Below, piece after piece: positions 15,550 to 33,922 of a stretch of 40,185 nt of DNA. Each line of letters opens with the position of its first letter. Position 1 is the stretch's first letter. Position numbers and translations under genes: made by a program. The notes beneath the pieces were generated by a model. The model made no database searches. It had not been told where the DNA came from and worked only from the letters and a program-made list of their open reading frames with translations. The stretch spans positions 4,149,250 through 4,189,434 of the forward strand of contig NZ_MTFE01000010.1 of assembly GCF_001953305.1 (NCBI RefSeq). Reading direction: 5' to 3'. This DNA is from Cnuella takakiae. Lineage in GTDB: Bacteria > Bacteroidota > Bacteroidia > Chitinophagales > Chitinophagaceae.

Positions 15550-15553
15550 ACTC

Positions 15554-15609: not shown

Positions 15610-15621
15610 GCAAAAAAGACT

Positions 15622-16863: not shown

Positions 16864-16930
16864 ACAATCCTGCCCTTTGTGTATGCCAGCAAAGGATCAC
16901 AACACCGGAATAGGAAATACAAACCCCACC

Positions 16931-17854
16931 ATGTTCTACAACACCTGTATCGTAACCTGCACTTTTATGCTTGTTGTCGCCTGCAAAGGTTCGGCAAGCA
17001 ACGAAACCGTACCCCAACAGGATAGCCTGTACCAGTCGAAAGCATTTACGCCCGCTAAAAGTTTTACCGCCGGCGCTGAAGGTCCTGCCGTAGACAAGGA
17101 AGGCAATGTTTACGCGGTCAACTTCAGAACGGAAGGCACCATTGGCCGCATGGCTCCCAATGGCGATACCAGCCTGTATCTGCAATTGCCTAAAGGCAGC
17201 ACCGGCAATGGCATCCGCCTGTACAAAAACAACCTGTATATAGCCGATTACACGGGACATAACATTTTACAGCTAGATCCGGCAGCAAAGATCTTATCGG
17301 TATTTGCCCACGAAGCCCACATGAACCAACCCAATGATATTGCCGTGGACAGCAAGGGTCGCTTTTATGCCTCTGACCCCAACTGGAAGGAAAGCACCGG
17401 CCAGCTTTGGCGTATCGATGCCGATGGCAAAACAGTTTTACTGGCAAAAGACCTGGGCACAACCAACGGCGTGGAAGTAAGCCCCGATGAAAAAAGGCTT
17501 TATGTAAATGAATCGGTACAGCGCAAGGTGTGGATATTTGACCTTTCACCCGAAGGAGCCATCAGCAACAAGCGCCTGCTGCTGTCATTCCCCGACCATG
17601 GTATGGACGGGATGCGTTGCGATGCCGCCGGCAACCTGTACATCACCAGGCATGGCAAGGGAACGGTGGCAAAAATTTCGCCCGATGGCAAACTATTGCA
17701 GGAAATAACCCTCAATGGCAAATTGCCCAGCAATATCGCCTTCGGCGGACCTGATGGGCGTACCGCTTATGTAACCTTGCAGGACAATGGCAATATGGAA
17801 AGCTTCAGGGTGGACGAACCGGGCAGGGAATGGAAGCTGCAGGCAAACTGGTAA
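16931..17854 (+). CDS. SMP-30/gluconolactonase-family lipoprotein
   Basis: This 307-residue six-bladed propeller has a lipobox ending at C18 (VVAC), so it is probably membrane-anchored outside the cytoplasm. The SMP-30 metal and active-site residues can be matched in order: E50 in AEGPAVD, N135 in QPNDIAVD, N179 in TNGVEVSPDE and D226 in GMDGMRCD, with spacing close to that of human SMP-30. The family hydrolyses sugar lactones with a divalent metal. It would open the lactone made by the dehydrogenase at 13235. I chose the ATG at 16931 because it leads directly into the lipoprotein signal; an upstream in-frame ATG at 16877 adds 18 polar residues that would displace it. It follows the deacetylase by 67 bp. 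Confidence 0.87.
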   Translation: MFYNTCIVTCTFMLVVACKGSASNETVPQQDSLYQSKAFTPAKSFTAGAEGPAVDKEGNVYAVNFRTEGTIGRMAPNGDTSLYLQLPKGSTGNGIRLYKNNLYIADYTGHNILQLDPAAKILSVFAHEAHMNQPNDIAVDSKGRFYASDPNWKESTGQLWRIDADGKTVLLAKDLGTTNGVEVSPDEKRLYVNESVQRKVWIFDLSPEGAISNKRLLLSFPDHGMDGMRCDAAGNLYITRHGKGTVAKISPDGKLLQEITLNGKLPSNIAFGGPDGRTAYVTLQDNGNMESFRVDEPGREWKLQANW

Positions 17855-19118: not shown

Positions 19119-20285
19119 TTAAGCTGGAAACAAGGTGGCTTCGTTGGAAGGCCATAATAGGGATTGGGGATGTTCCAATACAGCTTCGGCAAGGCCAAAA
19201 GAAAGGGTCATTCCAGCTCCTCCCAAACCATTCACGATGGTTACACCAGGCTCCGGCGCCAATACCATTTCCGTGGCACCATTGGTAAGCTTTGGATAAA
19301 TGCCGTTCCAGGTTTGCTGCAGGTCCCAGTTCTTCAGCCGTACAAATCTTTGCAGGTAGTGCAGGATCAGGTCGTTGATAAAGGTCTTATCAAACGGATC
19401 GTGCACCAGGCCGTACTCGTGGCTGTCGCCAATGGTAAGCGCCCCTTCTCCGTTTTGCGATACCATCACATGAATGCCCCATTTACCATATTCCGGGAGG
19501 GTGTCCTGGTAGTGGGCAACCAGTGCCTGCAAGGAAGGCGCAAGGGTAAAGCTTTTATAATGCGTGAGCGACAGGCCGCCACATAAGGAAGGGCCGATAC
19601 GCCAGTCGCCGGGTTGTGGCTTGATCCGCATCAACTGCAGTTTGCATTTGGTAATGGGCGCCGCCGCAAACACCTCGGGGTAAAGGGTTTCAAAATCGGC
19701 GCCACTGCATACAAAGATCTGGTCGGCAAACCAGTTGCGGTTGCCGGCCCACACGGTCGGGCTGGCAATATGCGTAACCGCCGTATTAAAGAAAAACTGC
19801 ACGCCAAATTTTTCCGACAGGTATGCAGGCAGGCGCTCGATGGCTACCCGGCTTTCTACAATCAGTTCATCGGCGCTCCACAAGCCACCCTGAATCCCGT
19901 AGGGGTTAATGGCCGGCGACAATGCCCGGGCATCGGCGGCCGTTACCATTCGTAAGGGGCGTTGCCCCGAAAAGCTGGCAAATTCCTCCAGCACCTGCAA
20001 CTCAAGCTGGTTATACGCCAGGTGAAGGCTGCCGCTTTCTTCGTACCACAGCCCCGCCTCATCACATACTTTCTTCCAGATGGAGCGGCTGCGCAGGGCT
20101 CTTTCATACAAGGGTCCATCGGGCTGGCCAATGGGCCAAACCATACCAAAGTTGCGGATGGAGGCACCCACGGCTTTTTCGTTTCTTTCCAACACGGTTA
20201 CCTGGTAGCCACGTACGGCAAGACTGCGGGCCATGGCGAGGCCAACGATACCGGCGCCAATAACAATTGCTTTCTGTGCAGGCAT
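19119..20285 (-). CDS. FAD-dependent oxidoreductase, phosphonate-associated (TIGR03364 type)
   Basis: This 388-residue DAO-family flavoprotein has an N-terminal Rossmann motif, VIGAGIVGLAMARSLAVRG (about 7-25), followed by VTVLERNEKAVGASIRNFGM, which is characteristic of the TIGR03364 clade. A C-terminal GLGGAGMTLSFGLAE strand closes the FAD site. This clade is known from its gene neighbourhoods with phosphonatase-like HAD enzymes and is proposed to oxidatively deaminate an aminophosphonate, such as an N-substituted or hydroxylated 2-aminoethylphosphonate. Here it is the last gene of a cluster that includes exactly such a HAD enzyme and a PhnZ-like oxygenase. It begins 34 bp after the permease gene. 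The exact substrate is not determined by the sequence. Confidence 0.88.
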   Translation of the reverse strand: MPAQKAIVIGAGIVGLAMARSLAVRGYQVTVLERNEKAVGASIRNFGMVWPIGQPDGPLYERALRSRSIWKKVCDEAGLWYEESGSLHLAYNQLELQVLEEFASFSGQRPLRMVTAADARALSPAINPYGIQGGLWSADELIVESRVAIERLPAYLSEKFGVQFFFNTAVTHIASPTVWAGNRNWFADQIFVCSGADFETLYPEVFAAAPITKCKLQLMRIKPQPGDWRIGPSLCGGLSLTHYKSFTLAPSLQALVAHYQDTLPEYGKWGIHVMVSQNGEGALTIGDSHEYGLVHDPFDKTFINDLILHYLQRFVRLKNWDLQQTWNGIYPKLTNGATEMVLAPEPGVTIVNGLGGAGMTLSFGLAEAVLEHPQSLLWPSNEATLFPA

Positions 20286-20319
20286 TTATTAAACTTGAAT
20301 TTTATACAATTTGGTGCGT

Positions 20320-21651
20320 TCAGGCTGCCACTACCACGGGATCCGGAAGCCTGGTGGGTGATGCTTCCTGCAATGGCCAGCCGGTGTGCTTTTTACGGAA
20401 ATATAAGGCTGCCATTACGGTACCCAGAATCCCCATCAGGCTCATGACCCAGATGGCCTGAACAAAAAAGGCAGTCCAGCTCAAACGCAACCCCCAGAAT
20501 TCTTTTACAAACAATACCAGCACACTTCCCAGGTAGCCGAAAGCATCGGCCAGGTACATCAAAAAACCCACATTGCCTTTCAGTCGAAAGGCAGCGATCA
20601 TCCGTTCGAAATACAGGCAGTTGAAAGGCACATAGCTGATATAAAGGCCTGTTCCGGAAAGAATCATCCAGAGTTGGGGCGCCAGCATCCCCGAGGAAAA
20701 CAACAGGGTGGCGGCAAGTGCCAGCAGGAAGCCGCAAATGATGATCAGGTGGTTGAACAGGAAAGCCTTCAGGTTGCTGCGTACCAGCATCAGGCTGCCC
20801 ATGGCCCCAAGTACCACCAGGGAAACTGGTATTTCGGCATGTGTGAAAACAGCGGCACTGGCGCCAAAGCCCAGCTCGGTCCATAGCTCGTTGGCGAAAT
20901 TATCACGCAGGTCGCGCAGCACGGTCAACAGTACATAAGTGAGCATAACGGCTGCCAGCCCGGGCCCCAGCAACTGCAACAACCGCAAACGTTCGGCAGC
21001 GGTCATGGGCAACCGCACCGAGCGGTGGGCTACATCGGCAGCTGAGGGTGGCGGCACATGATGGAGCAGCCAGGTGGCCACCAACATCGGCAAAAGAAAA
21101 ATGGCACCACAGCAAAAGGGCATCCACTGTTCGGAAAGTCCCATATCCAGCAACAACCATTTACCGGCACTCTTCATCATACCCGATGCAAGGATAAAGC
21201 TGGTAGCCAGCACCGTACCCATCAGTTCGGTAGCACGGCGGCCTTCGAGGTAGCTAAACACCACGCCCCATACCATTCCCAGCGGAAACCCATTGAGCAG
21301 CAGCCACACCACGCCCCAGGGCGCAGGTGTAAGGGCAAAACCCAGCAGGGCCAGCCAGGCTGCGGTAATCAGCACCACGATGGTTTTGGCCCTGTGGCCT
21401 GCACCCAAGGCTGAAATAAAACGGATACCGTAAAACTTGCTGCACATATAACCCAGGACCTGGGCGGTCACCAGCCATACTTTATAGGAAACACCCATAA
21501 ACTGAAGCCTGTTGAAGGCAGCCACCGTAAAGGGCTTGCGGAAAGCGTACATACAGCAATAGACCGCAAAGGCGCAAAAGGCGGCAAATACCACCAGCAC
21601 GGCAGGTGGCTTTCGCGCCAGCCATCGACTTATAGCAGCAGACTGCATCAT
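20320..21651 (-). CDS. DUF5690-type MFS permease
   Basis: This 443-residue polytopic membrane protein has about twelve hydrophobic segments. The first segment ends with YAFRKPFTVAAF, which recalls the Arg-containing TM1 motif of organophosphate:phosphate antiporters such as GlpT and UhpT. Later segments include GFPLGMVWGVVFSYLEGRR (a loop-TM junction typical of the MFS fold) and the GNVGFLMYLADAFGYLGSV helix. DUF5690 proteins have no established substrate. The position is informative: its start codon overlaps the HAD gene by 4 bp (ATGA), and the FAD oxidoreductase follows after 34 bp. It is therefore a good candidate for inner-membrane import of the phosphonate handled by these enzymes. Confidence 0.85.
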   Translation of the reverse strand: MMQSAAISRWLARKPPAVLVVFAAFCAFAVYCCMYAFRKPFTVAAFNRLQFMGVSYKVWLVTAQVLGYMCSKFYGIRFISALGAGHRAKTIVVLITAAWLALLGFALTPAPWGVVWLLLNGFPLGMVWGVVFSYLEGRRATELMGTVLATSFILASGMMKSAGKWLLLDMGLSEQWMPFCCGAIFLLPMLVATWLLHHVPPPSAADVAHRSVRLPMTAAERLRLLQLLGPGLAAVMLTYVLLTVLRDLRDNFANELWTELGFGASAAVFTHAEIPVSLVVLGAMGSLMLVRSNLKAFLFNHLIIICGFLLALAATLLFSSGMLAPQLWMILSGTGLYISYVPFNCLYFERMIAAFRLKGNVGFLMYLADAFGYLGSVLVLFVKEFWGLRLSWTAFFVQAIWVMSLMGILGTVMAALYFRKKHTGWPLQEASPTRLPDPVVVAA

Positions 21652-22352
21652 GCCGTTGCGGTTACATGTTCAAGCAGGGGCATCAACTGCGATAAATCGT
21701 CGATGATAAAGGAGGGATTATGCGGCACCAGGGCGTCGGCAGTAAAGGCGCCTGTAGTTACTGCTATGGAAAAAAGGCAACCGGCATTAAGCCCTTCGTG
21801 TATGTCCACTTCGGTATCGCCCACCTTTACCACTTCCAGCGGATCGGTGATGCCGGCACGTTCCATCAACCGGTTGATCATGTATGGGTAGGGCCTTCCT
21901 TTGGGCACTTCATCGCTGGCAACCAGGTCATCTACCAGGCCATTGCGCAGCCAGCCCAGCCGGCCGAGTATTACATCGGCAATATCGCGTGAAAAACCGG
22001 TGTCCAGGGCTACCCGGATGCCAGCCGACCGGAGGCGGGCAAAACTGGCTTCCACATGGGGCAGGGGCATGATGGCTGCATACCGGTAATGCCCCAGCAT
22101 ATGGGCTAAAAACCGGTCGTGGATACGATCTACCAGTTTCGTTGTGATGCGGTCTTCGTTGGTTTCGTACTCCGAAAGCATGATGCGGATAGCTTCCGGT
22201 TTTTTATACCCCATCAGCGGATTGATAAGGCTTACCGGGATAAAATAGCCCCACTCCTGCATGGCCCGCTGAAAGGCCAGCGCAATAGCGCCGTCATCGG
22301 CAACAGTGGTACCTGCCATGTCGAATACGACCATTTTAATAGTTGCTGGCAT
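21648..22352 (-). CDS. Phosphonatase-like HAD hydrolase (PhnX-like, TIGR03351 type)
   Basis: This 234-residue HAD hydrolase has the nucleophile D11 in VVFDMAGTT. The residue two positions on is Ala (A13), as in phosphonoacetaldehyde hydrolase, rather than the usual HAD Asp. The cap region has MGYKKPEAI (about 47-55), where K51 aligns by pattern with the Schiff-base lysine of PhnX. The C-terminal KVGDTEVDIHEGLNAG block supplies the metal-binding acids. The family cleaves the C-P bond of phosphonoacetaldehyde or a close relative. Its start overlaps the PhnZ-like gene by 17 bp and its stop overlaps the permease start by 4 bp, so the three are coupled. A start at 22334 is possible but would trim the first strand. 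Confidence 0.9.
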   Translation of the reverse strand: MPATIKMVVFDMAGTTVADDGAIALAFQRAMQEWGYFIPVSLINPLMGYKKPEAIRIMLSEYETNEDRITTKLVDRIHDRFLAHMLGHYRYAAIMPLPHVEASFARLRSAGIRVALDTGFSRDIADVILGRLGWLRNGLVDDLVASDEVPKGRPYPYMINRLMERAGITDPLEVVKVGDTEVDIHEGLNAGCLFSIAVTTGAFTADALVPHNPSFIIDDLSQLMPLLEHVTATA

Positions 22353-22923
22353 ACAGATATTCTTGACGCATTAAGTGTTGTAAGATCACCGGTTCAAAAT
22401 AGGTGGGCGGCGGCACCAGCACCATCGTGTCTTTACCCAATTCGTCCCATCGGCGTACTGCAATGATGTCGTTGAAAAAAGGAAGTTGCTCAAACAAACG
22501 GGCTTCATTGGCGCCCATTGCACCACCCTGCCACTGCAGGGTTACCAGGCTTGCCGGTGACAGTTTCCTGCGGTAGTCTTCATCTTTGGCTACCAGGTAG
22601 CGCTTGGCAGCCACATGATTTTCCACAATGCTGCACACCCTTGGCGAAAAGCCCCTTGCGCGGAGATAAGCGCCCCCCAGCAACTCATGGTTCACCACGC
22701 CAAAACCATACATGGTTTCGGTATGTGGTTCCTGTTTCAGCAGGTGCCCGATATCGTGGAGCAGGCCTGCCACCACCAGGTCGGCATCCCCGGTTTCCAC
22801 TTCGGCTATCAAAGCGCACTGCATCATGTGCGATGCCTGCGATACCGGTTCGCCGTCATAATCTTCCGCACCATGTAAGGCAAACAGGTCCATGATTTCT
22901 GCAACAACAAATTTTGGAGCCAT
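22336..22923 (-). CDS. PhnZ-like HD-domain mixed-valent diiron oxygenase
   Basis: This 195-residue protein matches the phosphonate-operon HD family (TIGR03276) that includes PhnZ, which oxidatively cleaves (R)-2-amino-1-hydroxyethylphosphonate to glycine and phosphate. The residues that define PhnZ are present in order: Y22 and E25 in DYDGE, H32, H56-D57 and H60 in LLHDIGH, H79, and H103 and K107 in NHVAAKRYLV. The TLQWQGG and RRWDELGK blocks are also conserved. No PhnY hydroxylase, the usual partner that makes its substrate, is encoded in the window. Either the hydroxylated compound is imported directly or PhnY is elsewhere. It is the first gene of the coupled phosphonate set, 128 bp after the phosphatase-like gene. 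Confidence 0.9.
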   Translation of the reverse strand: MAPKFVVAEIMDLFALHGAEDYDGEPVSQASHMMQCALIAEVETGDADLVVAGLLHDIGHLLKQEPHTETMYGFGVVNHELLGGAYLRARGFSPRVCSIVENHVAAKRYLVAKDEDYRRKLSPASLVTLQWQGGAMGANEARLFEQLPFFNDIIAVRRWDELGKDTMVLVPPPTYFEPVILQHLMRQEYLYASNY

Positions 22924-22942
22924 AGGAAAACTGGAGGTTAAG

Positions 22943-22972
22943 TAAGCTTATTGAAGTTGGTAAAAAAACAAA
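22943..22972 (-). promoter_or_regulatory. Possible Bacteroidota promoter for the phosphonate genes
   Basis: Read on the minus strand, TTTG (22969-22972) is followed after 18 bases by TAAGCTTA (22943-22950), which matches 6 of 8 bases of TAnnTTTG. The start codon follows 20 bases later. It would allow expression apart from the upstream SusCD genes. Confidence 0.3.
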
Positions 22973-23051
22973 GGGGGCAGCAAGGGGCAAGCGGATGGTA
23001 ATGGTAAATTAATACACGCACCGGCAGGCCTGAACTGCAAACCGGCAGCTT

Positions 23052-24131
23052 TTACTTACCTGCTACAGGTTGTAATGCAGGCATTACCGGGTGCGCTACT
23101 TTAAACTGTATTCCAAGCAGCGATGCAATGGTTGCTGCTACCTGTGCCTGGTACAATTGCGCGGGTGTTTTCACCTCACCCAAAGCCGGCAGTCCGGGGC
23201 CCATGGCTGCTATCCAGATGGCGCTTGCCTCGGGCACTCCTTCGCCATGATCGCGCCACTGCTTTTTGTCCTTGTCGCCGCGGCCATGATCGGTGGCAAT
23301 GATCAGGGCTGTTTTGTCTTTGTATTGCGGCATCGCCTGGATGGTTTGCCACAAGTCGGCAACCATGGCATCCTGTGCATGTGCGCTCTTGATGTACTGG
23401 TCGTACTGGCCGCCATGTGCATAATCATCGGTCTCATCAAAAGCGAGGTACAACACCCGGGGTTTACTTACCTTCAGGTACTCACGGGCAGCCATATACG
23501 TAAATATATCGGGGCGTACATCAATGGGCCGCGTGGTGAGCTTTTGCAGATCGTTGAGCAGCCGCAGTTCGGGATTGGTTGCAGGAAAGGAATCAAAGTC
23601 CGCATTTACATACAATCCGCTGCGCTGCCGGTTGAGGATATAGAGAAAAACATCCCAGGTAGCAAATGCCGCAACCTTGCCTTTAAAACCTGGCTGGCTA
23701 TTGATAAACTCCAGCACATTGACATTCTTGTTCCAAACCTTATCGTTCGAATTAACGGCGGTATCGGGATAGCCGGTAAACAACTCATTGTAACCCGGGT
23801 AAGAGAACCGGTACTTATTGGCCACATCCACCTGGTTGCCATAAGCACGGTTGCCATGCAACTGGCCATTGGCAGCAATGGTTTGCCATAAAAAAGGCAG
23901 CAGCTTTTGCCTCCGCACTTCGGGTGCTGCATCCCAGAACTTTGTCTTCATGCCTTCCCCATCGCGGGTGTACGCCTTGCTGTTCATCAATGCCGAATCA
24001 ACACCGTTGAATACCTCCTGCCAGCGCATACCATCGAGGGTAACAACAATGACGTTCTCTATTTTATTTTTTTGTGCATTAGCACCATGCAAGCACAATA
24101 ATCCGGCGAAAAGAATAAAAAACTGCTTCAT
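23052..24131 (-). CDS. Secreted alkaline-phosphatase-superfamily enzyme (phosphodiesterase type)
   Basis: This 359-residue protein has a signal peptide cleaved near ANAQ (residues 17-20). It belongs to the type I phosphodiesterase / nucleotide pyrophosphatase branch. The metal and nucleophile residues can be traced: Asp in TLDGMRWQ, the Ser nucleophile in FSYPGYNELFTG, Asp and His in DETDDYAHGG, Asp-His in ATDHGRGD, and His in RDHGEG. Members cleave phosphodiesters, phosphomonoesters or, in phosphonoacetate hydrolase, C-P bonds. It lies between susD (61 bp upstream) and the phosphonate genes (128 bp downstream), so it probably trims the imported substrate in the periplasm. I preferred the ATG at 24131 to one three codons upstream because it begins the typical Lys-plus-hydrophobic leader. 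Confidence 0.87.
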   Translation of the reverse strand: MKQFFILFAGLLCLHGANAQKNKIENVIVVTLDGMRWQEVFNGVDSALMNSKAYTRDGEGMKTKFWDAAPEVRRQKLLPFLWQTIAANGQLHGNRAYGNQVDVANKYRFSYPGYNELFTGYPDTAVNSNDKVWNKNVNVLEFINSQPGFKGKVAAFATWDVFLYILNRQRSGLYVNADFDSFPATNPELRLLNDLQKLTTRPIDVRPDIFTYMAAREYLKVSKPRVLYLAFDETDDYAHGGQYDQYIKSAHAQDAMVADLWQTIQAMPQYKDKTALIIATDHGRGDKDKKQWRDHGEGVPEASAIWIAAMGPGLPALGEVKTPAQLYQAQVAATIASLLGIQFKVAHPVMPALQPVAGK

Positions 24132-24192
24132 ACAATACAAGGGGTGATTGGGTAAAAAATCCTGCTCTTCAAATTAGACAATGGAACCCAGA

Positions 24193-25785
24193 TCAGCGCA
24201 CCACCCACGGGTTTTGATTGATATCATCCTTGCCGCCATATTGCGCAGCGAGTGCTGCATCGAGGTTGCTCCTGTTGGTAGTTGCTTCCGACACCGGGTA
24301 TTGAAAACGGCGGGGAATAACACCACTGTTGCCCGTTCCGGGTCCACCCTGTGCAAAGGCTGGCACGCCGGTTCTGCGGTAGTTGAAATAAGCTTCCCAA
24401 CCCGAGTTCTGGAAAAAGGCCAGGTACTTCTGGGAGAGAATTTTGTTTAAACCATCTGTTCCTGCGGCATACTTCACGGTGGGCTGGCTGTAATAATCAT
24501 CCCAGTTGAAATTAACTGTATACTGGTTGTAATCGGCTGCATTGGTCACCTGTCCGCCCGCCGTGAAAAAGTAAAGCGTGAGGTTGCCCGGCTGTACGCC
24601 CATCATTGCCTGTGCGGCTTTAATCCCCGACACATAGTAAGCTTCGGCATCACCACCGGCCCATCCCCTGTTCATGCCTTCGGCAATATTGAAGCATTGT
24701 TCCGGATACCCAACCTGGATGGTAGGTTCGGCAGTATAGGTGCTGTAATACCGCTTACGGTTGTAAAACGAATATTCACCCGGCAGGATACCGGCACCGT
24801 TGTTCACACCGGCCTTCGACGACATATCGGCAAGATCCTGCGCGGAAGAAGCACCCACAAAGGCTGCGTAATCGGTGGGCGCAATACCTGCCTTAATTTT
24901 GGCACCTGCGGGCTCCGCTACATAAAAAGTACGCGGGTCCCTGAGGGATGCCAGGGTATTAAGCAAAGTAGCCGCCATGTTGTACCGGGTGGCATCAAAA
25001 CCGAAGTTATCAGGGTTGGTGGGGTACTTGTTGAATTGGTTGTTGTACCGGTACTGCAGGTTGTCGTCGTTGCTGCCAAACAGGGGATATTTTGCGGGAT
25101 CGGCAAGTATTTGCGCAAACTGCTGTTTTACCTGCAGGTCTGCATCCTCATCCTTTTTACTCAGGGCCACCAGTACCCGCAGGCGGAGTGCGTTTACCGC
25201 CTTTTGCCACTTACTCAGATCGTTGTTGTAATAAATATCACCGCTCAGGTTTCTGTCGCCGGCTTTTACCAGGGCAGCAAGGTCGGTATTGGCGGCATCC
25301 AGCCATGCCAGCACCTGTTTGAAGATATCTTTCTGGCTATCGTATTTGGGTGCCAGGTTCTCGGTGCCTTTCAGGGCATCGTTCATGGGCAGGTCGCCCA
25401 GCTTCATGGTCATTTCGTAAAAGAAAAATGCACGGAAGAACTTGCCCAGGGCTGCATAGGCATTTTGTGCCGGCAACCCTATGCGTAGTGCTTCGGCTTC
25501 CATTTGCTGTACGTTCTTGAGCGTAGTATAATTCAACCCTGTAGCGGCCCAGTTGTACTCCTGGTTGCCATAGTAGTTGTAGTTGCAGGCAAAGAACTGG
25601 TTGTACCGCATCACATCGTTCCATGCGCCGCGGTAGAAATCGTTGGCTACGCCACTGAACACCAGTCCGGGGGTAACCTGCTTGGGCTGGTTGGGGTTGG
25701 CTTCGAGTGCATCAAACTTTTTACATCCTACAAGGGTGGCACTGAAGATTGCTGTGCCCAGGATGATCTTTTTGAAGGATTGCAT
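24193..25785 (-). CDS. SusD/RagB-family surface substrate-binding lipoprotein
   Basis: This 530-residue lipoprotein has a lipobox ending at C21 (TLVGC), followed by acidic and polar residues. It is a SusD-like protein of the SusD-like_2 type: the N-terminal NPNQPKQVTPGLVFSG and FYRGAWNDVMRYNQF blocks, TPR-like helices in the middle, and the typical end with FNYRRTGVPAF and IPRRFQYPVSEATTNRSN. It forms the lid over the SusC barrel and binds the substrate at the cell surface. I chose the ATG at 25785 because it starts the lipoprotein signal; a start at 25881 would add 32 non-signal residues. SusC lies 113 bp upstream. Its ligand is unknown; the neighbours suggest a phosphorus-containing compound instead of a glycan. 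Confidence 0.93.
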   Translation of the reverse strand: MQSFKKIILGTAIFSATLVGCKKFDALEANPNQPKQVTPGLVFSGVANDFYRGAWNDVMRYNQFFACNYNYYGNQEYNWAATGLNYTTLKNVQQMEAEALRIGLPAQNAYAALGKFFRAFFFYEMTMKLGDLPMNDALKGTENLAPKYDSQKDIFKQVLAWLDAANTDLAALVKAGDRNLSGDIYYNNDLSKWQKAVNALRLRVLVALSKKDEDADLQVKQQFAQILADPAKYPLFGSNDDNLQYRYNNQFNKYPTNPDNFGFDATRYNMAATLLNTLASLRDPRTFYVAEPAGAKIKAGIAPTDYAAFVGASSAQDLADMSSKAGVNNGAGILPGEYSFYNRKRYYSTYTAEPTIQVGYPEQCFNIAEGMNRGWAGGDAEAYYVSGIKAAQAMMGVQPGNLTLYFFTAGGQVTNAADYNQYTVNFNWDDYYSQPTVKYAAGTDGLNKILSQKYLAFFQNSGWEAYFNYRRTGVPAFAQGGPGTGNSGVIPRRFQYPVSEATTNRSNLDAALAAQYGGKDDINQNPWVVR

Positions 25786-25898
25786 ATACTTTGTTTTGGC
25801 CGGACTATCTCTATTTGTTCGGCCAGTTAATGATTGTTGTATTAATGGCAGTTCTGGTTGCGACCGAACTGTTCGGGCCACTTTAAGTAGCCTGATCC

Positions 25899-28800
25899 TT
25901 AAAATACCAGGTTCAGGTTCATACCAAAACGGCGGGTGGTAGGGGTTTGCAGGGTGGTGTACGCAGCCGCGCCGGGGTACTGGTCGAGGTCCAAGTCCTT
26001 GGCCTTGCTGAAGTACAACAGGTTGCGACCTACCACCGATACACTACCCGACTTGAATACACGGCCGCCAAACACGGTTGCGGGCAGGTTATAGGTCAGG
26101 GTCACTTCGCGCAGCTTGGCAAAGGTCTTGCTGATCAGGCTGGCTTCGTAGGTACCGTAGTAGCGGCTGATCCAATCCTGCAGGAAGGTTGCCGTTGTAT
26201 TGGGCGCATAACTCAGGTCTTTCAGGTTGGTAATGGCACCGGTAACGGGATCAAAGGCTAGCGGACCACTGGCAACCACGCCTTCACCTACCCAGGATTT
26301 ATTACCCAGGTAATCCTGGTAGCGGGCCTCCCCCATCTTTCCCTGTACGGTTTCGATGTTGCGGCCACCGCGGAAACTCTGGCGCTCGATCTGGTTCACG
26401 ATATTGCCACCCACACGGCCATCAAACTGGAAGGATAGGCCAAAGTTCTTCCACTGGAATTTGTTGTTTACACCCCACACCCAATCGGGGTTGCCGTAAC
26501 CCAGAAACTGTCCCTTGGGCAATACGATGGGCCTGCCGCCGGCATCGTTGATCAGCTGACCATCGGCTGTGCGGGCAAAGGCACTGGCGTAAATGGCATC
26601 TACCCTATCGCCTACCTGGATGAAGCGGTCCCCCTGGTTGTCGCCAATAAAATAGCTCGAAGGCAGGGAGTTCACACCGGGGTAAATAGAGGTGAGTGTT
26701 TCCTTGTAGGTGCTCCAGTTTAGCAGCACATCCCAGTTGAGCGCATTGCGGTCGCGGGCACGCAGCACGTTACCGGTAAGCGATGCCTCCCAACCCTTGC
26801 GCTGGGTTTCGATACCGTTTACAATGGCATTGTTATACCCCGTGGTTTGCGACACCTGACGGTTGAAGATGCCGGGACCATCGTTGTACACAAAATAGGT
26901 AAGGTCAAGCCCCAGGCGGTTGCGCATAAAGCGCATATCGATACCGCCCTCGTAGTTGGTGCGGCTGAAAGGCTGGAGTTCTTTATTGTTGAGGGTATTG
27001 GTATAATAAGCCGCCGGGCTGTTGTTGTACACCAAAGGGGTGGTATAGGCCGGTGAGTTCTCGTAGGTTGGCCCTTCGTACGAAGTCACATAAGGCGTAC
27101 CATAGCCAATGGGATAAGCTGCCGGTCCGCGGTTGGCAGCCGTCAAACCACCTTTTACGTTAGCCACCGACCCCTTTATTTTCAACATGCTGATAAAGGC
27201 GGGGAGCTTTACATAATCGGATACTACGCTGGACACCGATGCAGAAGGATAAAAGAAGCGGTTGTTGTTGGCGGGCAGCGTAGAGAGCTGGTCCTGGCGG
27301 CCAGTGAGCGAGAGGTTGATCCAGTTGCGGTAGCTGATATCCGCAAAAGCATAAAGGCTGTACACCCGCATGTCCGCGTCAAAGTTGTACACCTTCACGG
27401 GGTTGGCGCTGTTGCTGAAATTGTACACGTTGGGCACGTTCAGGTAGTCGGTGGTGGCAAAAGAAGAACGGTAGTTCCAGTTGCGGATATTGCCGCCAAC
27501 CGATGCGCGGATGTCCAGGCCGGGCATCAGCTTGCCATTGTTGGTATAACTCAGCAGGGCCTCGGTATTGTTTTCGAAAAGAGCGCGTTTGTCTTCGCGG
27601 TAGTCGCCCCTGCCCTCTTCCCTGCCGTAAGGGTGTGCCGAGAAGGGCATCTTTTCGTTGCGGAACACATCAAAGGTGGTAACCGAAGTACGGGCCATCA
27701 GCTCCAGGTTGTTGCGCAGCTTATAAGTCAGGTTAGCATAACCATAGATATCGTTTTTATAATGCCCACGGGTCCACTCATAACTCATAAAATATGGGTT
27801 GTGGTAGCGTTGGTATTCGGCATAGATGCTTTGCACGCCATCCTTGCCGGGCTGCCAGTAGTTGCGCATATCGCGCACATCCCAGTCGGCGCCACCCCAG
27901 ATGGTCATGTTGTAAATAATACTGTTGGGACCATACAACACATCGGGGAAGTTGTCGGTGTACTGGCGGTTGTAGTTGATATTGCTTTCAAACTTCAGCC
28001 GGTCGGTAAACCGGACGGTGTTGGCCAGGTTGAAAGAAGTGCTGTTCAGGTGGGTGTTGGGCACAATACCTTTCTGGTAAGTGTGCGAAACAGAAAAGCG
28101 GATATCACTGCGCTCGGTGCTGTTGCTCACGGCAATGTTGGTGGTGCTCAGCAATCCGGTTTGCAGGAAGCGCTTGAGGTTGTCCTTACCCCGTGCCATC
28201 CAGGGTGTAGCCTGCCGCACACCCGTTGCAGGGTCCACGGGGCTGTCGTACTGCGGGATCAGCTGGCCTTCAAACTTAGGCCCCCACACATCGTAGTCGC
28301 CGTCGTTCAATCCACCACCCCGGCCATCTACAAAAGAGTAGCGGCCGTGGTCGCCGGGGCCGTATTCATCCTGCACTTTGGGTATGGCCACAAAACCCCG
28401 CTCGGCCATCAGGCTGGTATTGAATTCTACGGTTGTGCCTTTGCGTGAGGATCCTTTCTTTGTATTGATGATGATGGCGCCGTTTTGCCCGCGGTAGCCA
28501 TAAAGGGCTGCGGCACTGGGCCCTTTTAGGATGGAAAAAGATTCAATATCATCGGGCGAGATATTCCAGGTATCGGAAGTGATGGGCACACCATCCACTA
28601 CAAACAGGGTTATGTTGGAACCACGTAGCAGCAGAGCGGGCGGACCCAGCAGTTCAGAGGAGATACCTACCGTAAGACCCGCCACTTTTCCCACCAAGCC
28701 ATTCAACGGGTTGGGTTCGCGAGCCTTAACCAGTTCCGATCCTTTTACCTCCTGAACCGAATAGCCAAGGCGCTTGGTCTCTTTTTTAATCCCAAGGGCG

Positions 28801-29126
28801 GTTACTACTACATCGTTCAGTTGCTTTACCGCCTGGCTGACTTCCAGGTTCAGCACTTCGCCGGCTACCGGAAAGCTGTTGCCTTCATAACCAATAGAAC
28901 TTACCAGTACCTGGTCGGAAGGTGCAGCATCAATGGTAAAAGATCCGTCGGCAGCGGTGGTGGTTACTTTACGGGTACCTTTCACCTGGATGGAAGCACC
29001 TGCAATGGGTTGTTTGGTTACTGCATCTACCAGTTTGCCTTTTACAGGGCCGTTCTGTGCCCACAAGGCAGCGGGTGCTGCAAGGGCCGCCAGCAACAGC
29101 AGCCGGTAGCAATTTTTACGCATCAT
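25899..29126 (-). CDS. SusC/RagA-family TonB-dependent outer-membrane transporter
   Basis: This 1075-residue protein has a signal peptide (cleavage near LWAQ, about residues 21-24) and a carboxypeptidase-regulatory-like domain (about 28-100, VKGKLVDAVTKQPIAGASI). A TonB-box-like segment follows (DVVVTALGIKKE, about 104-115), then the plug domain (LLRGSNITLFVVDGVPI and GPSAAALYGYRGQNGAIII) and a large beta-barrel ending in Phe. It pairs with the SusD protein to import a large or bulky substrate across the outer membrane using TonB energy. The absence of a nearby anti-sigma/sigma pair or hybrid two-component regulator is unusual for a polysaccharide locus. It is the first gene of a same-strand run that reaches the phosphonate enzymes. 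A TAnnTTTG element lies 24 bp before the start. Confidence 0.95.
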   Translation of the reverse strand: MMRKNCYRLLLLAALAAPAALWAQNGPVKGKLVDAVTKQPIAGASIQVKGTRKVTTTAADGSFTIDAAPSDQVLVSSIGYEGNSFPVAGEVLNLEVSQAVKQLNDVVVTALGIKKETKRLGYSVQEVKGSELVKAREPNPLNGLVGKVAGLTVGISSELLGPPALLLRGSNITLFVVDGVPITSDTWNISPDDIESFSILKGPSAAALYGYRGQNGAIIINTKKGSSRKGTTVEFNTSLMAERGFVAIPKVQDEYGPGDHGRYSFVDGRGGGLNDGDYDVWGPKFEGQLIPQYDSPVDPATGVRQATPWMARGKDNLKRFLQTGLLSTTNIAVSNSTERSDIRFSVSHTYQKGIVPNTHLNSTSFNLANTVRFTDRLKFESNINYNRQYTDNFPDVLYGPNSIIYNMTIWGGADWDVRDMRNYWQPGKDGVQSIYAEYQRYHNPYFMSYEWTRGHYKNDIYGYANLTYKLRNNLELMARTSVTTFDVFRNEKMPFSAHPYGREEGRGDYREDKRALFENNTEALLSYTNNGKLMPGLDIRASVGGNIRNWNYRSSFATTDYLNVPNVYNFSNSANPVKVYNFDADMRVYSLYAFADISYRNWINLSLTGRQDQLSTLPANNNRFFYPSASVSSVVSDYVKLPAFISMLKIKGSVANVKGGLTAANRGPAAYPIGYGTPYVTSYEGPTYENSPAYTTPLVYNNSPAAYYTNTLNNKELQPFSRTNYEGGIDMRFMRNRLGLDLTYFVYNDGPGIFNRQVSQTTGYNNAIVNGIETQRKGWEASLTGNVLRARDRNALNWDVLLNWSTYKETLTSIYPGVNSLPSSYFIGDNQGDRFIQVGDRVDAIYASAFARTADGQLINDAGGRPIVLPKGQFLGYGNPDWVWGVNNKFQWKNFGLSFQFDGRVGGNIVNQIERQSFRGGRNIETVQGKMGEARYQDYLGNKSWVGEGVVASGPLAFDPVTGAITNLKDLSYAPNTTATFLQDWISRYYGTYEASLISKTFAKLREVTLTYNLPATVFGGRVFKSGSVSVVGRNLLYFSKAKDLDLDQYPGAAAYTTLQTPTTRRFGMNLNLVF

Positions 29127-29149
29127 AAAACAGGGTGTTATGTATGCGT

Positions 29150-29157
29150 CAAAACTA
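29150..29157 (-). promoter_or_regulatory. Bacteroidota -7 element upstream of susC
   Basis: On the minus strand this reads TAGTTTTG, an exact match to TAnnTTTG, 23 bp before the susC start codon. No clear TTTG is found at the -33 position. Confidence 0.4.
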
Positions 29158-29252
29158 TCCGGGCAGTGTTACGGCGATATTGCCGGATGGTTAGGGAAAG
29201 GTTATGTTAATGGAAACTAAATGTTATGGATCCTTTACTGGTAAAAATTCTC

Positions 29253-30509
29253 CTATTTTTTTCCGGGAAATAAAACACCGGCAGGCACCACCCAGCAGCC
29301 CACACTATTGTATTTGCCCGCAACAACCACTTTTCCATAGGGCTGCATTACCGGGACGGGCAAGGAAATTTTCTGTTTTGCAGCAGCAACTTTTGCCAGC
29401 AGCCGGTATTTGTCGGTGCCACCTTTCCGGTGTTCGTCAGCAGGCGCATACCATATTGCTACCACTTCTTCCGGGTTGATGGCTTGCCACCTTACCACCA
29501 GTGAGTCGCCTTCCCGTGCTGCACCAGGTTGTGCAACTGAAAGAGGCCCGGACAGGGCTATACCGTCCAACTCGTAGCTAACGGCCTTGGGCAAGCGCAG
29601 CTGCATGTGGCGGGCAAGGGTTGGATAGATGTCCACCACTGCGGGCAATCCTACCGTAGCAGTATTTGCCAGCTTTTTATTACTGACGATCCAGGTACTG
29701 CGTTCCCGGCTGCTTTGCCCGCCATGGTGTTTTCCTGTTGCACTGTCCCTGCCATGGTCGGTGGTGATTACCAGCATCCAGTCTTCCCCATACTTCTTTG
29801 CCCTTGCTGCAATTGCCGCATCCAGCAGGCCTATCTGCCGGTCGAGGTAAGTGATGGCCTGTTCCATCTGTGGGCTATCGCCCCAGCGGTGGCCCATGTC
29901 ATCGGTATACTCGAGGTATACCCAGGAAAGGTCGGGCCCATGAGCAGCGATGGTAGCCGCTACATCGGCCACTACTTTTTCGTCTATCTGATGGATAAAG
30001 TTGCGTTCCTTATCGTGTGGGTACCGGATGGTGTCCAGTTCATACCCATCCGACACATAATCAAACTGCAGCCCTTTGGTTTGGGGCAGCCCCGCACCAG
30101 CCAGCTTAGTCCGGTTATCTGTCCAGGTAGAAAAAAGGGCAATGCTTTTTTGCGGGTATGCATCTTTGAATACCCGGAAGATGGTTGGATAGCTATAGTT
30201 GGGTGAGTCGATGTTATTGTCCCACACATTGTGCTTATGGGCCCAGGTACCCGTCAGCAGGCTGTTGTAGCCCACGGCAGAAATGGTGGGCGACTGCGTG
30301 TAACCATCCTTTTGGCCGCCCACATAGGCCCGGGTATAAGTACCCTGTGCTGCTATGCGCTTCAGCGTTGGCGCCGGGTGCCGCTCCAGCATATCGGCGG
30401 CAATACCATCGGCAATGATAAAAAGGGCTTTTGGCTTTTGCTGGGCCTGTAACAAAAAAGGCAAGCACAGCAAAAGCAATATCCTGCCAGCAAGGGAAAT
30501 GTGGAACAT
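29253..30509 (-). CDS. Second secreted alkaline-phosphatase-superfamily enzyme
   Basis: This 418-residue protein has a signal peptide (hydrophobic run, cleavage near LLQAQ, about residues 16-20). It has the nucleotide pyrophosphatase / phosphodiesterase fold: metal Asp in [11 protein letters not shown], a Thr/Ser nucleophile in [35 protein letters not shown] and KHHGGQSS. It differs clearly in sequence from the enzyme at 23052, so it is not a recent duplicate. A C-terminal region of about 110 residues after [12 protein letters not shown] looks like an added beta domain. It lies 126 bp upstream of susC on the same strand and could release phosphate or a head group from an ester at the cell surface. 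I chose the ATG at 30509 because it begins the signal peptide. Confidence 0.85.
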
Positions 30510-30697
30510 AGCGGGAAAGGGCATTTCCAAAAATAACAAGTCCCCAAAGGCCACCAAGAGCGGGCGCATTTCTTTTTCATTAAGGTTTGGGATTGGTCGG
30601 CAAGGTCAATCCCATTTACAATATGATCCCGCCACCTAACAACCATCATTTTGAATAGCACAAACTTTGTTAGTTTAGCCCCATTTCCCAGCCATAC

Positions 30698-32629
30698 ATG
30701 AACATTTCCCAGATACCCGGCTCTGATCCACTGCCCAATACAACAGATATATTGCTGCAGGCTTTACAACAAGCAGCAGTGCCGGTTATATTTTTTTATG
30801 CCCACAATGCAATTTGCGGCTTTGCCAGCGATGGCTGGCGCCAAAAGATCTGTGCTGCGGCAAGGGAAGGCGCACCTGCCGAGGACTGCTTTCCGGTAGC
30901 GGCCCGGTCCTTACTCGCTACGCTTATGCAGGATGCACAGCGGCAAGGCCAAAGCCGCAGCCCCATGTTTGGCGGCACTGAAGCCGGCAAATACTGGCGG
31001 TTGGATTGCAACTTCCACGCACAACCTACCCATGCGGGGTTCCTGGTATGGGCAAGCGATTGCACAGAAGCGTTTCTGGAGCACACACAGGCGGGCATAC
31101 TGCAGGAGAAGATGTCCCTCCTGGAACATGTGCTCCACAATATGGAAGAAGGCGTTTCCATAAGCGATGGCTCCGGTCATATTATTTATACCAATAAAGC
31201 CGAAGACCAGATGTTTGGGTACGAACCCGGCGGGTTGTACGGCCAACATGTTTCGGTACAAAATGCCTATGGCCAAGACGAGAATGCAGCCATCGTTGCA
31301 CAGGTGATGGAGGTGATTCGCAGCCAGGGCTTCTGGTCGGGTGAATGGCACAACCGCCGAAAGGACAGAACTCCTTTTTATACCTACGCACATATTACAG
31401 CCTCCGGCGAGGGCGAAAATTTTCGGTTTATTTGCGTGCAGCGCGATATCACCCGGGAAAAAGAAACAATGGAAGCCCTGCAACAGGAAACCAAGCTGAA
31501 ACAAACCATTACCGATAATGCCACGGCCACCCTGTTTATGATGAATGCCGAAGGCTATTGCACTTTTATGAACCCAGCAGGCGAGCAGATGTTTGGCTTT
31601 AGCCAGGAAGAGATCCGATCCAAGCCCCTGCACTACCTGGTACACCACCACCGCCCCGACGGTTCTTTTTACCCCATGCAGGAATGCCCCATCGACCGGG
31701 CCCTGCCCGAAAACTATGATGTGCGTGCACATGAAGACCTGTTCTTCCGCAAAGATGGCAGTACGTTGCGGGTAAGCTGCGCTGCCAGCCCCATTTTTGA
31801 AAATGGCGTACCCGTGTCAACGGTAATTGAAGTAAGGGATATTACCCGCGAAAAGGAAGCCCAGGAACGATTGCGCCGCAGCGCGGAAGAACTGGAGATA
31901 AAGGTGCGGGAACGTACTTCGGAACTGGAAGTGGCCAACGAACAACTCACGCAGTTTGCCTATGCCGCCTCACACGATTTGCAGGAGCCCTTGCGAAAGA
32001 TCCACTTCTTTTCCGACCGGCTGAAGCAAACCCTGGGCGACCAGCTGCCACCGTCCGAACGGGCCATGTTCGATCGAATGGAAAATGCCACCCAGCGCAT
32101 GCGCACCCTGATCGATGACCTGCTCAGCTACTCCCATACCAGCCTGGGCACAACGGCTTTTGAAACGGTGGACCTCAATGTGCTGCTGAATGAAGTACTG
32201 GAAGATATGGAAGCCACCATTGCCGAAACGGAAGCACGGATTGAAAAGGAGCCCCTACCGATAGTGCAGGGCAACGCGAGGCAATTGCGGCAACTGTTGC
32301 AAAACCTGCTGAGCAATGGCATCAAATACGCCAAACCCGAAAGCAGGCCCGAGCTGTGGATCAGTGCACGGGAACTGGGCGCAACCCAAAACGGCACCTA
32401 CGAAATAAAAGTGCGTGACAACGGTATTGGCTTTGAGCAGGGCGATGCCGACCGCATCTTTCATGTGTTTCAACGGCTGCATGGCAGAAGCGAATATGCA
32501 GGCACGGGCATCGGGCTGGCCATTGTGCGCAAGGTGGCCGAGAACCACGGCGGCAACATCACCGCTCACAGTCAGCCCGGACTGGGCGCAACATTTACCC
32601 TCAGCCTGCCCCGGCAGCCCTTGGATTAG
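30698..32629 (+). CDS. PAS-domain sensor histidine kinase
   Basis: This 643-residue protein has no membrane segment, so it is cytosolic. It carries a divergent N-terminal PAS-like region (about 20-130), two clearer PAS/PAC units (about 150-260 and 270-390, each ending in a DITREKE motif), a coiled coil, and a HisKA domain with H426 in AASHDLQEPLRKI. An HATPase_c domain follows, with LLSNGIKYA, DNGIGFEQ and GTGIGLAIV boxes. The HisKA/HATPase half resembles the receiver-kinase at 3331. No receiver gene is adjacent, so it is an orphan kinase. It is divergently transcribed from the phosphatase/SusCD genes with 188 bp between the start codons, so a regulatory link is possible but unproven. A strong terminator follows. 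Confidence 0.93.
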   Translation: MNISQIPGSDPLPNTTDILLQALQQAAVPVIFFYAHNAICGFASDGWRQKICAAAREGAPAEDCFPVAARSLLATLMQDAQRQGQSRSPMFGGTEAGKYWRLDCNFHAQPTHAGFLVWASDCTEAFLEHTQAGILQEKMSLLEHVLHNMEEGVSISDGSGHIIYTNKAEDQMFGYEPGGLYGQHVSVQNAYGQDENAAIVAQVMEVIRSQGFWSGEWHNRRKDRTPFYTYAHITASGEGENFRFICVQRDITREKETMEALQQETKLKQTITDNATATLFMMNAEGYCTFMNPAGEQMFGFSQEEIRSKPLHYLVHHHRPDGSFYPMQECPIDRALPENYDVRAHEDLFFRKDGSTLRVSCAASPIFENGVPVSTVIEVRDITREKEAQERLRRSAEELEIKVRERTSELEVANEQLTQFAYAASHDLQEPLRKIHFFSDRLKQTLGDQLPPSERAMFDRMENATQRMRTLIDDLLSYSHTSLGTTAFETVDLNVLLNEVLEDMEATIAETEARIEKEPLPIVQGNARQLRQLLQNLLSNGIKYAKPESRPELWISARELGATQNGTYEIKVRDNGIGFEQGDADRIFHVFQRLHGRSEYAGTGIGLAIVRKVAENHGGNITAHSQPGLGATFTLSLPRQPLD

Positions 32630-32753: not shown

Positions 32754-33125
32754 ATGGCAACCATTAATATCAGCGCCCAGGACTTTAAAGAGAAAATCTT
32801 CAACTACGAAACTTCGGAAGAGTGGCAGTACCTGGGACAGCGCCCTGCTATCATCGACTTTTACGCAGACTGGTGCGGTCCCTGCAAGGCCGTGGCACCG
32901 GTGCTGGAAGAACTGGCGGAACAATACCAGGGACAGGTGGATATTTATAAAATTGACACAGACAAAGAGCAGGAGCTTTCAGCCCTTTTTGGCATCCAGA
33001 GCATTCCTACTTTTCTTTTTATTCCCCTGCAGGGCAGCCCCATGTTGCAACGCGGTGCATTGCCCAAAAATGCTTTTCAACAGGTAATTGACCAGCGGCT
33101 GTTGCAGACTGAAGAAAAAGCTTAG
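32754..33125 (+). CDS. Thioredoxin
   Basis: This 123-residue thioredoxin-fold protein has the redox motif WCGPC in FYADWCGPCKAVAP (about residues 36-49), the cis-Pro in IQSIPTFLF, and no signal peptide, so it acts in the cytosol as a disulfide reductase. It has a slightly longer N-terminus than E. coli TrxA, with an insertion before the first central strand (YETSEEWQYLGQ). It is a single gene between two terminator-like hairpins. A near-consensus TATCTTTTG lies about 60 bp upstream. The role appears to be general redox maintenance, and its neighbours do not narrow it. Confidence 0.9.
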   Translation: MATINISAQDFKEKIFNYETSEEWQYLGQRPAIIDFYADWCGPCKAVAPVLEELAEQYQGQVDIYKIDTDKEQELSALFGIQSIPTFLFIPLQGSPMLQRGALPKNAFQQVIDQRLLQTEEKA

Positions 33126-33126
33126 T

Positions 33127-33194
33127 AGACGATGGACCATGGACGATGGGTTGTGGTCTATCTTCCATCGTCTATCGTCCATCAACCATCGTCC
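33127..33194. repeat. GATGG-rich inverted repeat between convergent genes
   Basis: GACGATGG and GGACGATGGG on the left face CCATCGTC, TCGTCCATC and CCATCGTCC on the right, forming an imperfect hairpin that can be read on both strands. It fills the whole gap between the thioredoxin stop and the glpF stop and probably serves as a shared terminator. The composition suggests a dispersed repeat and not ordinary intergenic DNA. Confidence 0.6.
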
Positions 33195-33922
33195 TAATTC
33201 AACATCAGGAACAGCAGGGCTGCCAGCACGGCACCGATCACGGGCCCTATCACAGGCACCCAGGCGTAGGCCCAGTTGGAGGAACCCTTACCCCGGATGG
33301 GCAAAACACTGTGTGCCAGCCGGGGACCCAAGTCGCGTACAGGGTTGATGGCATAACCCGTGGTACCGCCCAGCGAAAGACCTATGGACCATACCAAGAA
33401 CGCAACCGGCAGGGCACCCAGCGACCCCAAACCGATGGGTGTTTTCTCCGGACCTAATTCGGCACTTGAAAAATAAAAAACCACGAACACCAGCACAAAA
33501 GTGCCGACGATTTCGCTCAGCAGGTTGAAAGTGCGGTGCCTGATGGCGGGTGCCGTACAAAAACAGGCCAGTTGCGTGTCGGGTTCGGTGGTATGGTTGA
33601 AGTGCTGGTAATAAACCCCGTACACCACCAGCGCACCGATGATGGAGCCCAGCAATTGCGCCACAACGTAAGCAGCCACACCGCTCCAGGCAAACTTGCC
33701 TGCAATGGCCAAACCAATGGTTACCGCCGGGTTGAGGTGCGCCCCGCTAAATGGCGTGGCGATTACCACCCCGGTAAAAACAGCCAGTGCCCACCCCGTG
33801 GTGATCACCATCCAGCCGCCGTTAAAACCTTTAGTGCCTTTCAAAATACAATTGGCAACCACGCCGTTGCCCAGGATAATGAGGATAGCGGTACCGATTA
33901 GTTCTGCTGTAAAAGGAGACAT
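33194..33922 (-). CDS. glpF: Glycerol facilitator (MIP/aquaglyceroporin)
   Basis: This 242-residue protein with six membrane helices and two half-helices is a major intrinsic protein. The first pore motif is NPA in GAHLNPAVT. The second is NPV in INPVRDLGPR instead of NPA, with the Arg of the selectivity filter retained and the following Asp that marks glycerol-type channels also present. It should let glycerol diffuse across the inner membrane. It lies 142 bp downstream of glpK on the same strand, so the two probably form a glycerol uptake and trapping unit. The gap contains two copies of TAATGTGCTGATG (33925-33937 and 33941-33953). Confidence 0.93.
   Translation of the reverse strand: MSPFTAELIGTAILIILGNGVVANCILKGTKGFNGGWMVITTGWALAVFTGVVIATPFSGAHLNPAVTIGLAIAGKFAWSGVAAYVVAQLLGSIIGALVVYGVYYQHFNHTTEPDTQLACFCTAPAIRHRTFNLLSEIVGTFVLVFVVFYFSSAELGPEKTPIGLGSLGALPVAFLVWSIGLSLGGTTGYAINPVRDLGPRLAHSVLPIRGKGSSNWAYAWVPVIGPVIGAVLAALLFLMLN

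Follow-up and report, generated by a model that had tools for sequence, protein, structure and literature searches.

Outer-membrane importers of the SusC/SusD type are known mainly for sugars, and a locus in Cnuella takakiae (Bacteroidota, Chitinophagaceae; contig NZ_MTFE01000010.1, forward-strand positions 4,149,250 to 4,189,434) raises the question of whether they also import phosphorus compounds. Within this stretch of 40,185 nt from a 5.7 Mb genome, the whole of which is called the window below, a SusC/SusD pair (SusCD) stands among two phosphoesterase genes and a set of genes for the breakdown of phosphonates. We consider it likely that the locus is a phosphonate-specific phosphorus utilisation system (PUS) built on the plan of a polysaccharide utilisation locus (PUL), which imports an aminophosphonate carrier for cleavage of the C-P bond. 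SusCD importers would then probably serve phosphorus chemistry as well as sugars.

The eight genes of the locus lie where the first-pass annotation had placed them, all on the minus strand and read from 30569 down to 19119. In this order they encode PDE2, a type I phosphodiesterase/NPP-like protein (29253..30569, likely start 30509; PF01663, 66 bits, cut-off 23); a SusC/RagA-type TonB-dependent outer-membrane transporter (25899..29126; TIGR04056, 441.8 bits, cut-off 368.25); a SusD-like lipoprotein, the ligand-capturing partner of SusC (24193..25881, likely start 25785; PF12771, 208.6 bits), with a lipobox-like LVGC recognised by eye; PDE1, a phosphoesterase of the alkaline-phosphatase superfamily (23052..24140, likely start 24131; PF01663, 33.9 bits, cut-off 23); a PhnZ-like HD mixed-valent di-iron oxygenase (22336..22923); a phosphonatase-like HAD hydrolase (21648..22352); a DUF5690 inner-membrane transporter of the major facilitator superfamily (MFS) fold, OPA/SLC37-like (20320..21651; PF18943, 547.8 bits); and a predicted PbfD-type FAD oxidase of 2-aminoethylphosphonate (AEP) or its N-methyl form (M1AEP) (19119..20285; TIGR03364, 436.8 bits, cut-off 285.1). 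The last four had been described as a coupled set, and they are indeed tightly packed: the reading frames of PhnZ and HAD overlap by 17 nt and those of HAD and DUF5690 by 4 nt, and 34 nt separate DUF5690 from the oxidase. When the likely starts are used, the remaining gaps measure 126 nt (PDE2-SusC), 113 nt (SusC-SusD), 61 nt (SusD-PDE1) and 128 nt (PDE1-PhnZ), the last being the largest in the set. The arrangement is far from chance, and we infer that the genes are co-expressed. Both PDE1 and PDE2 are probably exported, each having an N-terminal signal-like stretch by eye, and with such phosphoesterases in one cluster with adjacent SusC and SusD the locus has the composition of a PUS.

Conservation of this neighbourhood was examined from both sides, with tblastn and a 12-kb radius for the counts made around PhnZ. 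A search of 195 genomes of the family with the PhnZ-like protein gave matches at E <= 1e-15 in 53, the window's own included, and one PhnZ neighbourhood was taken from each of the 52 other genomes. Both SusC and SusD turned up in 43 of these 52 neighbourhoods, and 49 contain a further phosphonate gene. Six of the nine loci lacking the pair are truncated at contig ends on the relevant side (L032, L033, L034, L052, L062 and L075); genuine absence was seen in three (L036, L079 and L081). The order SusC-SusD-PDE1-PhnZ-HAD-DUF5690-oxidase recurs widely, with gains and losses, and 40 of the 43 SusCD-bearing loci have PDE1, PDE2 or a beta-propeller PF04185 phosphoesterase. The first-pass annotation had named loss of SusCD from this position in related genomes as the observation that would count against the reading; the pair being kept in 43 of 52 loci, the reading stands.

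Starting from SusD gave a similar picture. The window's SusD was searched in the same 195 genomes, with at most seven candidates scored per genome, so that the list of weak matches is incomplete; 51 matches of at least 409 bits were obtained in 51 genomes, the window included. Three of them end at a contig edge and were set aside (L086, L089, L090). A phosphonate-linked gene (PhnZ, HAD, DUF5690, oxidase, PhnA, PhnY or PhnW) lies within 12 kb of 44 of the 48 informative orthologues, again counting the window, and DUF5690 is the only such gene in two cases (L085, L092). Among the weaker matches outside PhnZ loci, a subset of 24 was examined (L099-L122), and no phosphonate gene at 45 bits or more was found beside any of the 23 that remained once L117, which had no downstream room, was excluded. 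PhnZ loci account for nine further weak matches, which belong to a second group of SusD proteins linked to phosphonate genes.

A quick SusD tree with a simple model (121 rows; seven identical and two short rows dropped; long branches flagged by treekit for L122, L107, L118 and L121) placed the window's SusD in a clade of 70 rows, 62 of which are phosphonate-linked, four of unknown linkage, two linked to a phosphoesterase only and two to neither. All 24 rows of a second clade are phosphonate-linked. Because the loci were gathered partly via PhnZ and DUF5690, these shares are biased upward, and the reverse search with SusD is the less biased measure. Beside the window's clade lies a group of nine (L098-L106), eight of them unlinked to phosphonate genes; a PF13350 (Y_phosphatase3) product is encoded next to SusD in six of the seven scanned loci (all members but L099 and L105), that is, in five of the six scanned unlinked members (L102 gave no match) and in the linked member L098.

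Beyond the family, DUF5690 was used as the anchor. A phylum sample, in which DUF5690 was searched in 395 genomes and matched in 43, comprised 40 loci, six of them from the window's family, with seven already collected and two weak matches left out. A second sample consisted of the best 80 of 588 loci from a DUF5690 profile search of named genomes; some genomes are common to the two samples, and some to a sample and the family set. Among the phylum loci, a SusCD pair was present no farther than 12 kb from DUF5690 in 10 of the 26 with other phosphonate genes, nine of these ten outside the window's family, versus none of the 14 without them (Fisher 0.0075, uncorrected for relatedness). The corresponding counts for the named genomes are 30 of 52 versus 1 of 28, the single case being L197, where SusCD and DUF5690 stand by themselves (Fisher 6e-7, likewise uncorrected). 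Loci of Mucilaginibacter, Pedobacter, Fulvivirga, Roseivirga and Muricauda hold the same gene set in altered orders, which argues that the link between SusCD and the phosphonate genes is independent of any one inherited order.

The catabolic part of the locus is exchanged in two family members. L038 has PhnA, PhnY and PhnW after SusC-SusD-PDE1-PhnZ, then a FAD enzyme resembling sarcosine oxidase, then DUF5690; in L041 the genes after SusC-SusD-PhnZ are PhnA and PhnY, then a homologue of PDE1, the FAD enzyme and PhnW. HAD and PbfD were not detected in either stretch. The NCBIfam equivalog cut-offs are exceeded by PhnA and PhnY in L038 and L041 alike and by the PhnW of L038, and PhnW of L041 was called from 79% identity to its L038 counterpart. 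That two catabolic routes to one end follow orthologues of the same SusCD and PhnZ points to AEP as the common substrate. The proposal of the first-pass annotation that SusCD and the phosphonate enzymes share one substrate thus gains from the two-way neighbourhood conservation, the SusD tree, the varied gene orders and the catabolic swap, and such a shared-substrate link appears well supported on this comparative evidence.

The catalytic residues of the window's enzymes are retained, and their activities are predicted accordingly in what follows. Against TIGR03276 the PhnZ-like protein reaches 191 bits, short of the cut-off of 214.6; its best match in the PDB is PhnZ (4n71, E 8.4e-44), with TmpB (6npa, E 5.9e-28) trailing. 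Residues Y22, E25, H32, H56, D57, H79, H103 and K107 are invariant in 73 of 73 sequences and D160 is kept in 72; those tested are, we assume, the di-iron ligands and the Tyr/Glu lid residues. R158, a neighbour of D160, is unconserved (23 of 73). The HAD protein stays below the cut-offs of both TIGR03351 (182.7 bits, cut-off 218.9) and TIGR01422 (119 bits, cut-off 220), with phosphonoacetaldehyde hydrolase as best PDB match (1rql, E 1.2e-17). Its D11, A13 and K51 align to D12, A14 and K53 of 1rql and are conserved in 88, 85 and 88 of 88 sequences, as are D179 and D183 in all 88; we take these to include the nucleophilic Asp, the Ala at +2 and the Schiff-base Lys, the latter two presumably being the phosphonatase signature. 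The labels first given to these two proteins are thus weaker than implied, both scoring under the curated TIGR03276/TIGR03351 cut-offs, but active-site residues and solved-structure matches support them.

For the oxidase, the conversion of M1AEP or AEP to phosphonoacetaldehyde has been shown for two PbfD enzymes, and PbfD1, which oxidises both compounds, is annotated in the TIGR03364 family (PMC10590968). The substrate of PhnZ is (R)-hydroxy-AEP; it was originally obtained from polysaccharides of Acanthamoeba and has also been reported in the lipids of a Bdellovibrio (PMC8154272). No match to a PhyH-family (PhnY*) gene was found in the genome, so PhnZ would need preformed hydroxy-AEP supplied from outside. 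The PEP (phosphoenolpyruvate)-mutase family is matched in the genome only below cut-off, which makes phosphonate synthesis unlikely.

Homologues of PDE1 above 100 bits occur in 43 of the 52 family loci, and its residues D36, S113, D238, H242, D284, H285 and H298, which look like active-site and metal positions of the alkaline-phosphatase superfamily, are kept in 70 or 71 of 71 sequences. The PDE1 model (pLDDT 86) best matches YejM, LtaP/LtaS, NPP and sulfatases at TM scores of only about 0.5, and its predicted class is accordingly left at the level of the superfamily. An assignment as a PhnA-type phosphonoacetate hydrolase was discarded, with no TIGR02335 match at E 0.001 and other folds of the superfamily matching best. 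A signal-bearing protein of 441 amino acids (aa) without a Pfam match, in which a metallo-beta-lactamase-like HxHxDH motif was noticed by eye, is encoded near PDE1 at L048:9478-10803, and homologues lie near PDE1 in L049, L064, L066, L068, L069 and L075, all seven being phosphonate loci. At L087:6080-10177 and L088:10245-14348, SusCD-PDE1 is followed by an open reading frame (ORF) of 445-448 aa, with AA_permease_2 in L087, and by no phosphonate gene; these loci perhaps liberate and take up a different amino compound.

The first-pass annotation had counted two phosphodiesterase-type enzymes, and both do match PF01663. PDE2, which matches chains of ENPP and bacterial NPP enzymes weakly, proved to be a local addition and was rejected as a core part of the family locus, with homologues above 100 bits in none of the 52 other family loci. 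They were present in four of 120 other loci (L163, L164, L172, L258), all of them phosphonate loci; the SusD of L163 is nearly identical to that of L258 (Mucilaginibacter), so that these do not represent four independent cases. A separate SusCD group (L108-L111, L114) has PDE2 homologues of 50-54% identity directly after the pair, without phosphonate genes. Additional or alternative phosphoesterases in other loci are beta-propeller PF04185 enzymes, GDPD (L053, L061) and metallophosphoesterases (L180, L244, L246). The recurrence of several unrelated kinds of phosphoesterase between or beside SusD and PhnZ makes an ester cargo likely, without proving it.

The predicted structure of DUF5690 (pLDDT 94) has an MFS fold, and its seven top Foldseek rows in the PDB are all human G6PT/SLC37A4, at TM 0.58-0.64 on the query; sialin and further members of the MFS come closely behind. 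HMMER gave no useful sequence relatives of known structure, and hhalign against GlpT, UhpT and UhpC reached a pair E of 0.0019 with a probability of only 14.6%. In this alignment R38/K39 correspond to R45/K46 of GlpT and R246 to R269; all three DUF5690 residues are invariant in 59 sequences, and R45 and R269 of GlpT are those that bind the substrate phosphate. DUF5690 thus resembles the GlpT/UhpT/SLC37A4 antiporters in fold, best structure matches and counterparts of both GlpT arginines, but differs in the missing HMMER match, the low hhalign probability and a Pfam family of its own. Based on model and alignment, an organophosphate-antiporter-like role is likely. The name DUF5690 was not found in the literature searched.

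Put together, these parts suggest the following pathway. SusD would capture, and SusC import, an aminophosphonate carrier whose most likely form is an ester of AEP, of its N-methyl form or of (R)-1-hydroxy-AEP; candidates are a glycerophosphonate or a head-group fragment from a phosphonolipid or phosphonoglycan. PDE1, here with the help of PDE2, may release the aminophosphonate, either periplasmically or on the cell surface, and DUF5690 would carry it over the inner membrane. AEP or M1AEP would then be oxidised by PbfD to phosphonoacetaldehyde, which the PhnX-like HAD would split into acetaldehyde and phosphate, while PhnZ would convert the hydroxylated variant to glycine and phosphate. Several observations weigh against so tight a coupling. 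In the two other sampled genomes of the genus (G004, G104) both PhnZ and this SusD are missing at the thresholds applied, and four SusD orthologues of at least 409 bits (L087, L088, L095, L096) have no recognised phosphonate gene; PDE1 is kept in the first two of these, L087 also having an amino-acid permease by Pfam, and a GDPD (Pfam) adjoins SusD in L095. DUF5690 occurs without other phosphonate genes in 14 of 40 phylum and 28 of 80 named-genome loci. Conversely, 16 of 26 phylum and 22 of 52 named-genome loci with DUF5690 and phosphonate genes have no SusC and SusD pair within 12 kb, some being cut by contig ends, and six loci of Stenotrophomonas, Lysobacter and Luteibacter carry HAD-DUF5690-PbfD with no match to SusC, SusD or PhnZ, indicating that the catabolic module works without them.

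Could SusCD and PDE1 instead scavenge phosphodiesters in general, such as lipid head groups and glycerophosphodiesters, with the phosphonate enzymes as add-ons for a phosphonate minority? Related SusCD groups do adjoin PDE2, PF04185, GDPD or Y_phosphatase3 enzymes where no phosphonate genes are present, L087 and L088 retain SusCD-PDE1 but none of those genes, and the PUSI locus of Flavobacterium consists of SusCD with two phosphodiesterases (PDEs) (PMC8115612). Yet ordinary phosphodiesters would exert no selection to keep C-P enzymes, and 44 of 48 SusD orthologues in the reverse search are phosphonate-linked, in line with the tree, where the shares of 62 of 70 and 24 of 24 include many rows found via PhnZ or DUF5690; we therefore hold general scavenging to be unlikely, if a serious contender. 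Uptake of free AEP, M1AEP or hydroxy-AEP, with SusCD conferring high affinity and PDE1, for example, hydrolysing other phosphoesters, would agree with the properties of those relatives of the downstream enzymes that have been characterised; they use free aminophosphonates or phosphonoacetaldehyde (PMC10590968, PMC8154272). SusCD loci without any of four kinds of phosphoesterase also exist (3 of 43 in the family, 2 of 10 in the phylum sample, 10 of 31 in named genomes). The presence of a phosphoesterase in 40 of 43 SusCD-bearing family loci speaks the other way, as does size, since molecules as small as free aminophosphonates are expected to pass porins, and we find this explanation rather doubtful.

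That SusCD imports an unrelated glycan or peptide and came to its place by historical accident seems highly improbable. Such pairs are numerous (37 PF14322 SusD matches in this genome) and mostly serve glycans, and a GH43 gene lies about 8 kb off in the window; however, no GH43 homologue above 100 bits was found in the 52 family or the 120 other loci, no glycosidase is present among the inserted ORFs scanned with Pfam, and an accident would leave the two-way conservation, the SusD tree and the rearranged gene orders unaccounted for.

SusCD complexes of Flavobacterium are induced by phosphate depletion and co-localise with phosphomonoesterases, PDEs and phosphonate-degrading enzymes (PMC8115612). 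The earlier statement that SusCD loci are known mainly for glycans and some peptides is right in that most serve glycans, but a role in the import of phosphorus compounds had already been proposed in PMC8115612; SusCD for organic phosphorus is thus not new, and the window's system is a variant within this kind. It shares with the Flavobacterium PusCD loci a SusCD-like complex and exported phosphoesterases in one cluster. PusD1 and PusD2 carry PF07980/PF14322, whereas the window's SusD carries PF12771, and the main text of PMC8115612 has the word phosphonate twice and, in the parts compared, names no phosphonate gene; here, a defined PDE1-PhnZ-HAD-DUF5690-PbfD module is traced across families. 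The PbfD-PhnX clusters of PMC10590968 likewise combine a TIGR03364-type FAD oxidase with phosphonoacetaldehyde hydrolase, often without PhnW, to which the window adds SusCD, a phosphoesterase, PhnZ and DUF5690. That paper mentions PbfD in the FCB group, and its available text contains no word beginning with Bacteroid and no mention of the outer membrane. The window's oxygenase, closer to PhnZ than to TmpB, resembles that of the PhnY*-PhnZ oxidative pathway, but the genome has no PhyH-family match and PhnZ stands beside a hydrolytic route, as it also does in some phnWX and phnWAY clusters (PMC8154272). With glycan PULs the locus has SusCD and exported hydrolases in common, but these hydrolases are phosphoesterase-like and not glycosidases. 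The available parts of PMC8812569 and PMC7029141 hold no tie between SusCD and phosphonates, and the literature searched, which included few subscription papers, yielded no account of the module, of its conservation in both directions, of the exchange for PhnA-PhnY-PhnW or of the present interpretation of DUF5690.

The flanking glycerol genes and histidine kinase gene are not conserved with the locus. Upstream, glpF, glpK and glpD (facilitator, kinase and glycerol-3-phosphate dehydrogenase; 33194-38196, minus strand) suggested that glycerol might be released from a glycerophosphonate, but homologues above 100 bits are present in 0, 1 and 0 of the 52 family loci, respectively, and in none of the 120 elsewhere, and the idea was dropped. 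A divergent PAS histidine kinase near PDE2 (30698-32629, plus strand) has a counterpart in one of the 52 (L038, a protein of 1188 aa with about 30% identity) and none of the 120. Also near PDE2 is a thioredoxin gene (32754-33125, plus strand). On the other side, 11726-17854 (plus strand) encodes a DgaE/SelA-like pyridoxal-phosphate enzyme, a GSDH/cytochrome-c protein, a Rid protein, an amidohydrolase (PRK09237) and an SMP-30 protein, and looks like a catabolic set for a sugar acid or amino-sugar acid. A regulator combining XRE and cupin domains (PF01381, PF07883) is absent at the window's locus; it occurs in 19 of the 52 family loci (L031, L035 and L053 among them), 17 of which have it immediately ahead of SusC, and in 37 of the 120 others. 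Phosphonate loci without SusCD have it too, and its presence suggests substrate-linked control.

A further, speculative possibility concerns what the cell gains. The SusCD clade may be dedicated to phosphonate esters drawn from membranes or glycans of other organisms (phosphonolipids, amoebal phosphonoglycan), feeding DUF5690 as a new antiporter branch, and may harvest carbon and nitrogen while returning phosphate, since strict phosphonate/phosphate antiport yields no net phosphorus. The gains would then be acetaldehyde, glycine, ammonia and methylamine, with phosphate released to the surroundings. No description of how larger phosphonate compounds pass the outer membrane was found in the literature searched, and the conserved unit of SusCD and phosphonate genes provides a concrete candidate for this step. 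Its linkage to DUF5690 proposes a function for that family, and the unit may serve as a marker for the use of phosphonate esters in Bacteroidota that surveys of the classical genes could miss.

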